Assembly: GCA_019044685.2 (NCBI GenBank)
Contig: JAGTXX020000017.1
Coordinates: 248,001-312,000, forward strand
Reading direction: 5' to 3'
Origin: Nannochloris sp. 'desiccata'
Taxonomy: Eukaryota; Chlorophyta; Trebouxiophyceae; Chlorellales; Chlorellaceae
Length of the DNA: 64,000 nt
The notes below the pieces were generated by a model. The model saw only the letters and a program-made list of their open reading frames with translations, was not told where the DNA came from and made no database searches. A program made the translations under genes and the position numbers. This document shows, one piece after another, positions 32,241 to 59,786 of the stretch. Position 1 is the first letter of the stretch. Each line of letters starts with the position of its first letter.

Positions 32241-33053
32241 ATGATCACATTAAAAAAAATGCAGATCATATGTGCACCAAGGGCTTTATGCCCACCTCCC
32301 CTCAGGGGAAGTCCCCGACGCCGTGATTCTCTTATCACCACTTGTGCAATTCCAAACTCTCGACACTCTTTAGACCGTCGGGAGCTAATGACTGGCAGCG
32401 CTGCCCTCGCAGCATCTACATTACTATTGAACGGATCCAATCCTGCTCTTGCTGCTGGAGGAGCTGATTCCATCTACTCTTTTTCAGGCACACTTGATGG
32501 TAAAGACTTCCCATTCTCCCAGTTCATAAATAAAGTAGTATGTATCGTCAACATTGCGTCTCAATGACCCTTGCAAAACGTGAACTATCCTGGACTTCGA
32601 TATTTGTTAGAAAAGTATCAAGATCAGGGGTTCGCGGTGTGCGCAGTTCCCTGCAATCAATTTGGAGGTCAAAGCCCCGGCACAGATCAAGAAGAACGGG
32701 ATGCAGCCTATCGTAAATTTGGGCTGGATACATTCCCTGTAGTTGATCATATGTTGACCAATGGACGGGACGCCCATCCGTTGTACAGATATATGAAATC
32801 GGAGCAGCCTATTGAGTTACCGTCATCTCAAGGGGCCCCGCCTGGAGAGAAGGGCGTGCTCACGTGGAACTATGTTAAATTCTTGATTGATAGAAACGGC
32901 AAGCCTGTGAAGAGGTTCAAACCTGGCTTTGATCCCATGGAATTCGAAGGTGATGTGAGATTATTACTCGCTGGAAAGGATCCTCTACCGGCCGAGTGTA
33001 TCATGCACCCGGGACGTAAAGTGTGCAACGTGGATCGCTTACTTTCTGCATAA
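32241..33053 (+). CDS. GPX: Selenocysteine-containing glutathione peroxidase-like protein, lumen-targeted
   Basis: A 271-codon frame interrupted only by TGA at 32565-32567 (codon 109). That TGA sits exactly at the catalytic position of the GPx motif (VNIASQ-U-PLQNVNYPGL, normally NVASxC/U). The rest of the tetrad is intact: Gln in CNQFGGQ, and Trp/Asn in LTWNYVKFL. The same frame stays open and conserved after the TGA to the TAA at 33051, so TGA most likely encodes selenocysteine. The N-terminus has a basic Ser/Arg stretch, then DRRELMTGSAALAASTLLL and ALAAGG, a twin-arginine plus hydrophobic core plus AxA site, as in Tat-dependent thylakoid-lumen proteins. It should reduce hydroperoxides with thiol donors, probably in the thylakoid lumen. 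The start at 32241 (MITLKK) could instead be the Met at 32259. Confidence 0.88.
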
Positions 33054-33129: not shown

Positions 33130-33240
33130 TTGATTTAAAATAAATACTCTATGACAGCAGCAGGGTCGTCCCTAAAATTCTCTTTTTATTTTATTTTATT
33201 TGAAGAGAAAGGGCCCTTGCCGCTTGACACGTATTGTTAT
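33130..33240 (+). promoter_or_regulatory. Candidate SECIS element in the GPx 3' UTR
   Basis: About 100 nt after the stop, ATGA (33151-33154) and TGAC (33225-33228) could form the non-Watson-Crick quartet. AGCAGCAGGG can pair with CCCTTGCCGCT between them. A further stem TTCTCTT/AAGAGAA lies above an A-rich 5' bulge (TAAAA), closed by a T-rich loop. Below the quartet, AATAC and GTATT can pair. The A-rich bulge is farther from the quartet (about 20 nt) than in a textbook SECIS, so the fold is tentative. Confidence 0.4.
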
Positions 33241-33318
33241 GTTAGTGTACTGCTTCTTCCTGTCATATTTCTTCAATTTTTATGAATTTTTGTTGTATTA
33301 TTATTACCTCCCACGGTT

Positions 33319-33323
33319 TGTAA
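33319..33323 (+). promoter_or_regulatory. TGTAA polyadenylation signal of GPx
   Basis: The first TGTAA after the GPx stop codon lies about 265 nt downstream. Using it would place the candidate SECIS inside the mRNA. Confidence 0.4.
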
Positions 33324-33668
33324 ATTTTTGAAAAGCAGAGAAGCAAGGTGATGGGGGTTTTTTTCGATTCAGACCAAGCCAAAGTCTTCCTATACCGATG
33401 GAAACTTTAGTTAAAGCTGTGTGTGTTCTTTGGCTGTAGTGAAATGCAGGAGGCTTAGCGATTAATCTGAAGAAGGATCAAACAGGCTACTTCGCTCAAA
33501 CGAATTCAGTGGTGGCAAAATTCTGCCCCTCCATGCGAAGTTTGCCTTGGTCAAATGCTCGCCGCAACTCAATTTTCACGTTCAGACTCGGTTTTAATGG
33601 CCCTGCAAGCTTCTAAATCGTCCTCTTATTAGCACAATAGCTTTAGGGCACCTTAAACAATCTGCAGC

Positions 33669-57453: not shown

Positions 57454-58464
57454 CTACGCTACTTCTACATTAAAAGCTCGCCCCACGCCGTATGAGACAC
57501 CAAGTGCCAGCCAACCACCCAGAATCACGCGCATACCACCCTTAAGTAAGCCAGCACCACCCAAGTAAGCACCTAAAATACCAAAAACAAGCAGCCCAGC
57601 AGTCGTGGAAAGAGCAATTGCAATAAGCCTGTAAGCCTGATCTGAAATGAAAATGGCAGATAAAAGAGGTATGGCAGCTCCAAAGCTAAAGCACAGAGCT
57701 GATACGACTGCTGCTTGGAGAGGATTGGCCAGCTCATCCACATCAATGCCCAACTCATCTCGAGCGTGAGCTCTAATCACATCCCGTTCTGTCAGTGCCA
57801 CTGCAACTTGTCTGGCGAGGTCTACGGGTACACCGCGTTCAACGTAGATTTGAGCAAGCTCTTGAAGTTCCCGCTCTTGTGCTTCGGGGCCTTTTAATTG
57901 TTCTAAAATTTCTTTTTCAATATCCGCCTTCTCCGCATCTCTTTGAGAAGACACTGAAACATACTCTCCTAATGCCATGCTGAGTGCTCCTGAAATGAGA
58001 GCAGCTACACCAGAGAGACGGAGGGTAGCAAGGTCCGAAGATCCTGAGCCTACGCCCATAAGTAAGGCAGCAACAGAGACCAAGCCGTCGTTGGCGCCTA
58101 GGACAAGGGCTCGAAGCCAGGGTGCACGATTCGAGTGATGCACATGATCACAGAATTCTTCTTCTCCAGCTGTGGTGGCTATTTCTGCCATACTACTGCT
58201 TTGGCGGTTGTCTGCGGCTAATAAAGGAATGATGCCATCTTCTATAGCGGAGAGACGCTGCAGTATTTAAATAATTTGATGGCGGAACGAAGACATGGGG
58301 TAAAAGAGAAAAATATGGGTCATGGCACCGCATCAAATAATGTGGATATTTTGCGCGATATGCAAGCTAGGAGAAAAGCTACTAACCTGGTTACAAGTAT
58401 TTTCCGAAATCTGATCTTCAGTCGTAAATATACCATTGCTGGTGTTTGGGTTCTTTGGATCCAT
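57454..58464 (-). CDS. VIT/CCC1-family iron or manganese transporter, copy 1
   Basis: Exon 1 is 58387-58464 (26 codons, MDPKNPNTSNGIFTTEDQIS...) and exon 2 is 57454-58257, joined CAG|CGT, giving 293 residues. Exon 1 was found by matching the second copy, whose first exon ends HHISENISAQ against QISENTCNQ here. The core reads HHSNRAPWLRALVLGANDGL, VSVAALLMGVGSG, LRLSGVAALISGALSMALGE, YVSVSSQRDAEKADIEKEI, then two more hydrophobic helices and a C-terminal GGMRVILGGWLALGVSYGVG. Five helices and the charged cytosolic helix between TM2 and TM3 (metal-binding domain) define the VIT/CCC1 family, which moves Fe(II)/Mn(II) into vacuoles. This copy lies head-to-tail with copy 2. Confidence 0.9.
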
Positions 58465-58772
58465 TATCGCAACCTTGTCTTTATTCCTTGGGTATTTAAG
58501 ATTGCAATGTAGAATGTTACAGGTTCAAATTTATGTGTGGTAGTGGTGAAGAGCCTCGGAGGGCGTGGAATTCAAAGCGCCATCGTTGTGTGGAAATTAC
58601 TAGCTGCTGATAGGGGGAGTCGATTTTACTTTAGTTTTTCCTACAGATGAGCTTACAGGAAGCAGCTTGCTGTAGATTGACGCAGCTGCCTGCGTAGGTT
58701 GTGTAATATATTCTTTTTCGTTGAACTGGATTTCAGAATCCAAAACTCTTCCTAGAACATGGGAGATAGTCA

Positions 58773-59786
58773 CTACGCTACTTCGACATTAAAAGCTTGA
58801 CCCACGCCATATGAGACACCAAGCGCCAGCCAACCACCCAGAATCACGCGCATACCACCCTTAAGTAAGCCAGCACCACCCAAGTAAGCACCTAAAATAC
58901 CGAAAACAAGCAACCCAGCAGTCGTGGAAAGAGCAACCGCAATAAGCCTATAGGTCTGATCTGAAATGAAAATGGCAGATAAAAGAGGTATGGCAGCTCC
59001 AAAGCTAAAGCACAGAGCTGATACGACTGCTGCTTGGAGAGGATTGGCCAGCTCATCCACATCAATGCCCAACTCATCTCGAGCGTGAGCTCTAATCACA
59101 TCCCGTTCTGTCAGTGCCACTGCAACTTGTCTGGCGAGGTCTACGGGTACACCGCGTTCAACGTAGATTTGTGTCAGTTCTTCAAGTTCACGTTCTTGTG
59201 CTTCAGACCCTTTTGACTGTTCTAATACCTCTAATTCAATATCAACTTTCTCGGCATCTCGTTGAGACGAAACTGAAACATACTCTCCCGCAGCCATGCT
59301 GAGTGCTCCTGAAATGAGAGCAGCTACACCTGATAAGCGTAGAATAGAGAGGTCCTGAGAACCAGATCCTACGCCCATAATTAAGGCAGCAACAGAGACC
59401 AAGCCGTCGTTGGCGCCTAGGACAAGGGCTCGAAGCCAGGGTGCACGATTCGAGTGATGCACATGGTCACGTAGTTTTTTTTCTGCGTCTTTGGTACCTA
59501 TTTCTGCCGTACTTTCACGGCCTTCTGTGGCTAGAGAAGGGATGATGCCATTTTCTATAGCGGAGACACGCTGCAAAAAATTAACGACAAACGGGGAACA
59601 GATTAATCAGTTTTTAATTACTTTTCATCGACCCTGCGAAAAGAAGAACATTGTTTTACGAGCATATTTGCGTGGTGTATCCAAGGTGGGAGAAGTAGTT
59701 TTTCAGCTTCTGACCTGCGCAGAAATATTTTCGGAAATGTGATGTATCTCTTGAATCGTTACATCACCTAGGTTCTTTGATTTCAT
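58773..59786 (-). CDS. VIT/CCC1-family iron or manganese transporter, copy 2
   Basis: Exon 1 59715-59786 (MKSKNLGDVTIQEIHHISEN...AQ, 24 codons, GTCAGA donor) is joined to 58773-59570, giving 289 residues. The protein is about 90% identical to copy 1 after residue 45, with the same APWLRALVLGANDGL, ISGALSMAAGEYVSVSSQRD and GGMRVILGGWLALGVSYGVG blocks. Long stretches are identical at the nucleotide level, while the segment coding for the charged helix between TM2 and TM3 and the N-terminus have diverged. Tandem duplication with later gene conversion is the simplest explanation. Its divergent partner is the selenium-binding protein gene, about 280 bp away. Confidence 0.9.

Follow-up and report, generated by a model that had tools for sequence, protein, structure and literature searches.

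The gene at 32241–33053 on the plus strand of the window, the stretch of 64,000 nucleotides analysed here, is in our judgement a functional nuclear gene for a selenocysteine (Sec) glutathione peroxidase (GPx) whose internal TGA is read as Sec (probability about 0.94). An earlier note on this DNA had proposed a Sec GPx from the sequence, and homology, machinery and conservation support that reading. The proposed Sec decoding of codon 109 rests on these three lines, and what we say of SECIS function, location and electron donor we infer. The product would be a GPX4-like peroxidase belonging to the Chlamydomonas GPX2 subfamily; neither this known subfamily nor the twin-arginine leader and C-x8-C tail of the protein figured in the earlier note.

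The features are as follows; A2 denotes an alignment of a chosen 58 of 121 proteins, several with odd or short ends having been left out.

32241..33053, plus strand: Sec glutathione peroxidase gene, 270 codons and TAA, single internal TGA, PF00255
32376..32456, plus strand: Tat-like thylakoid-transfer domain RRELMTGSAALAASTLLLNGSNPALAA, residues 46–72, after a transit-peptide-like stretch
32500..32646, plus strand: intron of the public model (P0002), 147 nt, GT..AG, removing the TGA; judged false
32565..32567, plus strand: TGA taken as the codon of selenocysteine 109, at the catalytic position, opposite the Cys that is catalytic in solved GPx-type proteins
32670..32672, plus strand: tetrad Gln144, 58/58 in A2
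32865..32870, plus strand: tetrad Trp209-Asn210, 58/58 in A2
32997..33026, plus strand: C-terminal C253-x8-C262 tail (CIMHPGRKVC), both Cys 58/58 in A2, a favourable count because several odd- or short-ended proteins were left out
33151..33228, plus strand: candidate SECIS, 78 nt (AUGAC, helix, AAAA bulge, long mini-stem, helix, UGAC)

The reading frame and its genomic setting

The frame is uninterrupted, as had been claimed, save for one TGA at codon 109 (32565–32567), the sole other stop being the terminal TAA at codon 271. The second ATG, at 32259, may be the start codon in place of that at 32241, and it is the one used by the public model. Read through, the protein matched the Pfam GSHPx family (PF00255) at 1.6e-25 (89.3 bits against a cut-off of 27) and 41 distinct chain sequences in the PDB, named as GPx, GPx-like proteins, the yeast peroxiredoxin HYR1 and designs on GPX4. 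Its predicted structure matches the GPx fold, with a mean pLDDT of 79.8 and values of 79–98 in ten-residue blocks from residue 81 on.

The catalytic tetrad of GPx consists of Sec or Cys, Gln, Trp and Asn. Codon 109 lies opposite the Cys of NVASxC in both of the PDB alignments printed; we take this Cys to be the catalytic residue of GPx, and the placing of the TGA at that residue in the earlier note holds. The partner residues it listed are likewise retained, as Q144, W209 and N210, and with TGA109 they make the tetrad complete in the read-through protein. Sec109 would act with Gln144, Trp209 and Asn210 to reduce hydroperoxides.

The genome of Nannochloris sp. 'desiccata', a genus of the Trebouxiophyceae, comprises 21.55 Mb on 18 contigs, and the gene lies on contig C17 (653,437 bases). 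With its TGA it is present three times, twice on C17 (100% over 3.8 kb) and once on C9 (99.66%); because the copies are near-identical, they count as one event. It appears that the window (1–64000, C17:248001–312000) sits within one of the two arms of a large inverted duplication: pieces of C17 sampled at 100–104, 200–204, 278–283 and 310–318 kb matched, in reverse, places as far as position 561 kb (99.96–100%), the arms being separated by some 25 kb (317,691–342,747). Sampled pieces of C17 also matched C9 (99.2–100%), and those contig ends that were compared did not match each other. The duplication may be a real fold-back chromosome or an assembly artefact. Elsewhere in the window, two adjoining minus-strand frames (57454–59576; 245 and 267 aa) closely resemble each other and look like a tandem pair of VIT1/CCC1-type membrane transporters.

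Homologues around codon 109

Protein searches covered 41 relatives and then the best 120 of 1167 homologues at E <= 1e-20 (P0002–P0121). In 104 of these best 120 the alignment did not reach the site, starting at residues 111–114 in 59, at 115–135 in 36 and later in 9. All but three of the 59 (56) began within the homologue's first four residues, just after codon 109. The other 16, which include the public model of the window gene itself (P0002), show how recurrent the annotation failure is: nine have a gap at the site, in five the residue there is out of register (L, C, A, V, V), and two have a Trp, so that 14 show a gap or a residue out of register. The five out-of-register residues look like products of mis-spliced gene models. 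No credible Cys was found at the site among the best 120 of 1167 homologues; the C of P0061 was rejected as a catalytic Cys, KYCKGK being joined there to NVNYP with the active-site stretch absent. Independent support for the TGA comes from proteins of other species that do not reach codon 109 or are mis-modelled around it.

The two Trp residues stand in conserved context in metagenomic proteins (VNIASEW-PLNN in P0006, VNVASEW-PLQN in P0007). They are most simply explained as TGA translated by a genetic code that assigns this codon to Trp, a real Trp codon being the alternative. A second Trp of P0007 sits near the point where relatives end, and this would fit a TGA stop read likewise as Trp. 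A third W in the codon-109 column of A2 is taken to be that of P0093 (ETWWVM), out of register. GPx loci on viral contigs (49 and 28) were distant, at most 48% identical (over 52 residues) and at most 40% in the longer ones, and were left out.

Selenocysteine machinery and other selenoprotein genes

The earlier note had proposed a search for the Sec machinery, and the genome proved to contain it. A tRNA-Sec (75 bits; anticodon TCA by ARAGORN), SepSecS (424 bits) and SPS (292 bits, without a stop inside the match) all scored above their cut-offs; among 14 control genomes the same cut-offs were passed by tRNA-Sec in five, by SepSecS in three (one of them B. subtilis) and by SPS in two. The SPS (selD) match, L021 (G000:C9:737634-738587, minus strand), contains no TGA; its frame of 488 residues is extended at the N-terminus and may be of the oxidoreductase–SelD fusion type.

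The cut-off of the selB profile (TIGR00475) was reached nowhere in the genome, and its best match, L011, was rejected as EFsec since it looks like a mitochondrial EF-Tu. What looks like EFsec is L013/L017, named by eye from an EFsec-like GTPase start and a C-terminal part. An 812-aa frame on C16, with 635 residues inside the locus examined, ends in an L7Ae-type domain; it is likely SBP2, also named by eye, from features typical of that protein. Together, tRNA-Sec and EFsec would decode the UGA at codon 109 as Sec.

Other genes also carry a TGA at a redox motif, namely a SelW-like gene (L010, CGQU) and a SelT-like gene (L009, CTSU). Both are apparently TGA-terminated too, so that TGA would be both Sec and stop in this organism. 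The SelW-like protein (G000:C1:575460-575681) begins MGCLVSKA, which we take to be N-myristoylation-like. None of the four MsrA matches, and neither of the two SelU-type matches, in the genome has a TGA. A SelM profile matched neither this genome nor the controls, which does not imply absence. Five TrxR-type matches in the genome contain no stops, and the four examined were rejected as selenoproteins, looking like glutathione reductases and lipoamide dehydrogenases. Two further GPx genes of the genome, L004 and L005 (the latter after an intron), appear to be Cys-type; L004 (G000:C14:416507-416965, minus strand; VASQCGYT) has a long His/Asp-rich stretch upstream in the same frame.

A SECIS candidate in the 3′ UTR

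A SECIS in the 3′ UTR would direct the decoding of the UGA, and the element at 33151–33228, which starts 97 nt past the stop codon, is a plausible though unproven candidate. Its surroundings fold stably (33141–33240, z −3.04, 0/200 shuffles as stable; 33130–33250, z −2.54, 2/200 shuffles as good), statistics that flatter the candidate because the place was picked after scanning. The distance from AUGA to AAAA is 19 nt and that from AA to GA 48–50 nt; the rule given in the available text of PMC2375036 is 10–13 nt and 15–39 nt, respectively, and the candidate breaks it on both distances. The same text describes long mini-stems in SECIS elements of Ostreococcus and in several of those of Chlamydomonas. 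The SECIS prediction that the earlier note had suggested for the 3′ UTR gave a stable stem-loop with AUGA/UGA flanks, with neither a Rfam match nor the published spacing.

The Rfam model SECIS_1 found nothing in the gene, whether in 2.5 kb around it, in 201 bases of the UTR or in a search of the whole genome, and the SelT and SelW loci likewise gave no Rfam SECIS match. The sole sub-threshold genome match (L008, 23.5 bits against 35) was discarded, no selenoprotein reading being seen at that locus. Our own scans varied with their stringency. The first gave no candidate; a loose one gave 105 candidates with at least 9 pairs for the plus strand of the whole window, and within the UTR it placed 33348–33462 (GUGA, 11 pairs) above 33151–33228 (AUGA, 10 pairs), the latter being preferred because of its AUGA and A-bulge. 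When the published rule was applied strictly, 33151–33228 was not returned, and shuffles did as well in 37/60 cases for GPx, 33/60 for SelT and 32/60 for SelW. The SelT and SelW loci have AUGA candidates at 12–14 nt spacing, the folds of which are no more stable than those of shuffled sequences (z 1.13 and −0.50), and MAFFT aligned the SECIS quartets of GPx, SelT and SelW poorly. In the C9 allele an end pair of the GPx candidate's mini-stem is disrupted. Downstream of the candidate, at 33319, stands a TGTAA that we take to be a green-algal poly(A) signal.

Alternatives to selenocysteine decoding

In the public model of the window gene the TGA lies inside an intron, and the spliced mRNA would give a 215-aa protein without it. 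The earlier note had expected automated annotation to mangle the gene, and P0002 does excise the TGA: removal of 32500–32646, an in-frame stretch of 147 nt with GT..AG borders, reproduces it exactly. We doubt this intron because the stretch holds the active site, so that part of the GPx core would be lost with it, and because it is conserved as protein. It is identical to P0006 at 31/50 residues (66/109 downstream) and to P0007 at 27/50 (68/109), the latter somewhat below its downstream identity. The models of other species, moreover, break at differing points around the same codon, and we regard a true intron here as highly improbable.

There is likewise only a very slim chance that the gene is a pseudogene with a nonsense mutation. 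The internal stop is found in 3/3 copies, which count as one event; against its being a lesion, the remaining frame is intact, the homologues from other algae are broken at this same point, and the genome has both Sec machinery and other TGA-containing genes.

A twin-arginine leader, a C-terminal tail and a possible thylakoid-lumen location

Thylakoid Tat substrates combine a transit peptide with twin Arg, a hydrophobic core and an x-Ala end. The domain RRELMTGSAALAASTLLLNGSNPALAA has the twin Arg, a hydrophobic stretch and ALA. Leaders were compared in 18 entries or, P0002 being the window gene again, in 17 genes with any upstream sequence. RR followed by a hydrophobic stretch and an AxA, GLA or (in P0061) LLA end occurs in ten of the 17 (P0001, P0028, P0040, P0045, P0061, P0066, P0068, P0069, P0084 and P0086). 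Before a similar hydrophobic stretch P0022 has KR and P0073 a single R; the sequences of P0006, P0007 and P0088 start within a stretch of this kind or beyond it, and P0010 and P0093 lack one. The Pfam Tat models (TAT_signal) stayed below cut-off in two of 13 subfamily members and silent in 11, the NCBIfam Tat models were silent in 9/9 members, and a PDB search with the leader only gave no match.

The C-terminal tail recurs in a looser pattern in 102/121 proteins. In thioredoxin-dependent (2-Cys) plant GPx the resolving Cys lies at the position of residue 157, and the subfamily has no Cys there (0/58 in A2), which separates it from the plant type. It is the twin-arginine leader, together with a C-x8-C tail and the lack of the usual resolving Cys, that suggests a thylakoid-lumen enzyme. 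The peroxidase is probably imported into the plastid, and we lean slightly towards a Tat-type signal that would then take it into the thylakoid lumen.

The Sec protein could instead be stromal or mitochondrial, with the RR leader merely part of its transit peptide, which we consider rather unlikely. The recurrence of RR, hydrophobic stretch and x-Ala end in 10/17 genes speaks for more than a transit peptide. In favour of this rival, the other seven, mostly fragments or doubtful models, do not show the combination of RR and hydrophobic stretch, and no Tat model scored the leader above its cut-off. As a single control, a Cys GPx of plastid type in this genome also has RR, with a weaker hydrophobic stretch (12-residue maximum 0.94 against 1.28–2.19). 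In its available text, PMC3095285 gives a chloroplast-targeted status to CrGPxB, the Chlamydomonas relative, calls seed-plant GPx stromal and mentions the lumen for PrxQ only, and in the main text of PMC9404770 on GPX2 the words 'lumen', 'thylakoid' and 'chloroplast' are absent. No claim of a lumenal Sec GPx was found in the open literature covered, subscription papers mostly lying outside that coverage.

Our data are compatible with a broader model, for which we see an even chance, in which trebouxiophyte and chlorophycean algae share a dedicated lumen selenoperoxidase. Sec would be inserted in the cytosol, and the protein would cross the envelope and then, by the folded-protein (Tat) route, the thylakoid membrane. 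Its C-terminal C-x8-C, instead of a core resolving Cys, would act in the lumen as a disulfide or electron relay. Such a selenoenzyme would be located on the side of photosystem II where oxygen is evolved. Should the leader prove to be a genuine Tat signal, many green algae would have a selenoenzyme in that compartment, and two questions would follow: what donates electrons to a lumenal Sec peroxidase, and whether selenium supply limits photoprotection. Possible lumen targeting and the C-x8-C tail are the points of interest that go beyond the known kind of Sec GPx.

Comparison with known systems

Vertebrate GPX4, a monomeric Sec enzyme, has the same fold and tetrad as the window protein; natural or point-mutant GPX4 structures, designs apart, gave a TM-score of 0.81–0.87 by target length and are 34–36% identical to it. 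To our knowledge vertebrate GPX4, like the window protein, is without a resolving Cys at the 157 position, and it has no such C-x8-C tail and no plastid or Tat leader. The three best PDB matches by sequence are the Cys-type GPx-like peroxidases of plants and trypanosomatids 2p5q, 2vup and 3e0u, which share the fold but have Cys where the window protein has Sec. In the alignments printed, a Cys occurs at Tyr157 or beside it in both 3e0u and 2vup; it is presumably the resolving Cys, and the window subfamily has none there (0/58).

Going by the organism names of the homologues and their taxonomy, we take the subfamily to span Trebouxiophyceae and Chlorophyceae. It includes P0084 of the related trebouxiophyte Picochlorum SENEW3, a deposited model without the active-site stretch, which may be one of the two GPX that PMC11092101, as available, counts among the selenoprotein matches of that alga. 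Trebouxiophyceae selenoproteomes are small and GPX is widespread in algae, according to the accessible parts of PMC6627142 and PMC7539508.

Among the closest known counterparts is GPX2 of Chlamydomonas reinhardtii (CrGPxB, Cre08.g358525, CHLRE_08g358525; P0066), which belongs to the same subfamily (profile search 1.0e-72), is 50% identical over 69% of the query in this other species, and shares both the RR leader and the C-x8-C tail. Cre08.g358525 is named as the Sec GPX2 in PMC9404770, and the available text of PMC3095285 gives CrGPxB (GPx2) as a chloroplast-targeted Sec-type protein of 259 aa, the length of P0066, with RT-PCR support. The Sec identity of the Chlamydomonas GPX2 subfamily is already known, and the window gene adds a member to it.
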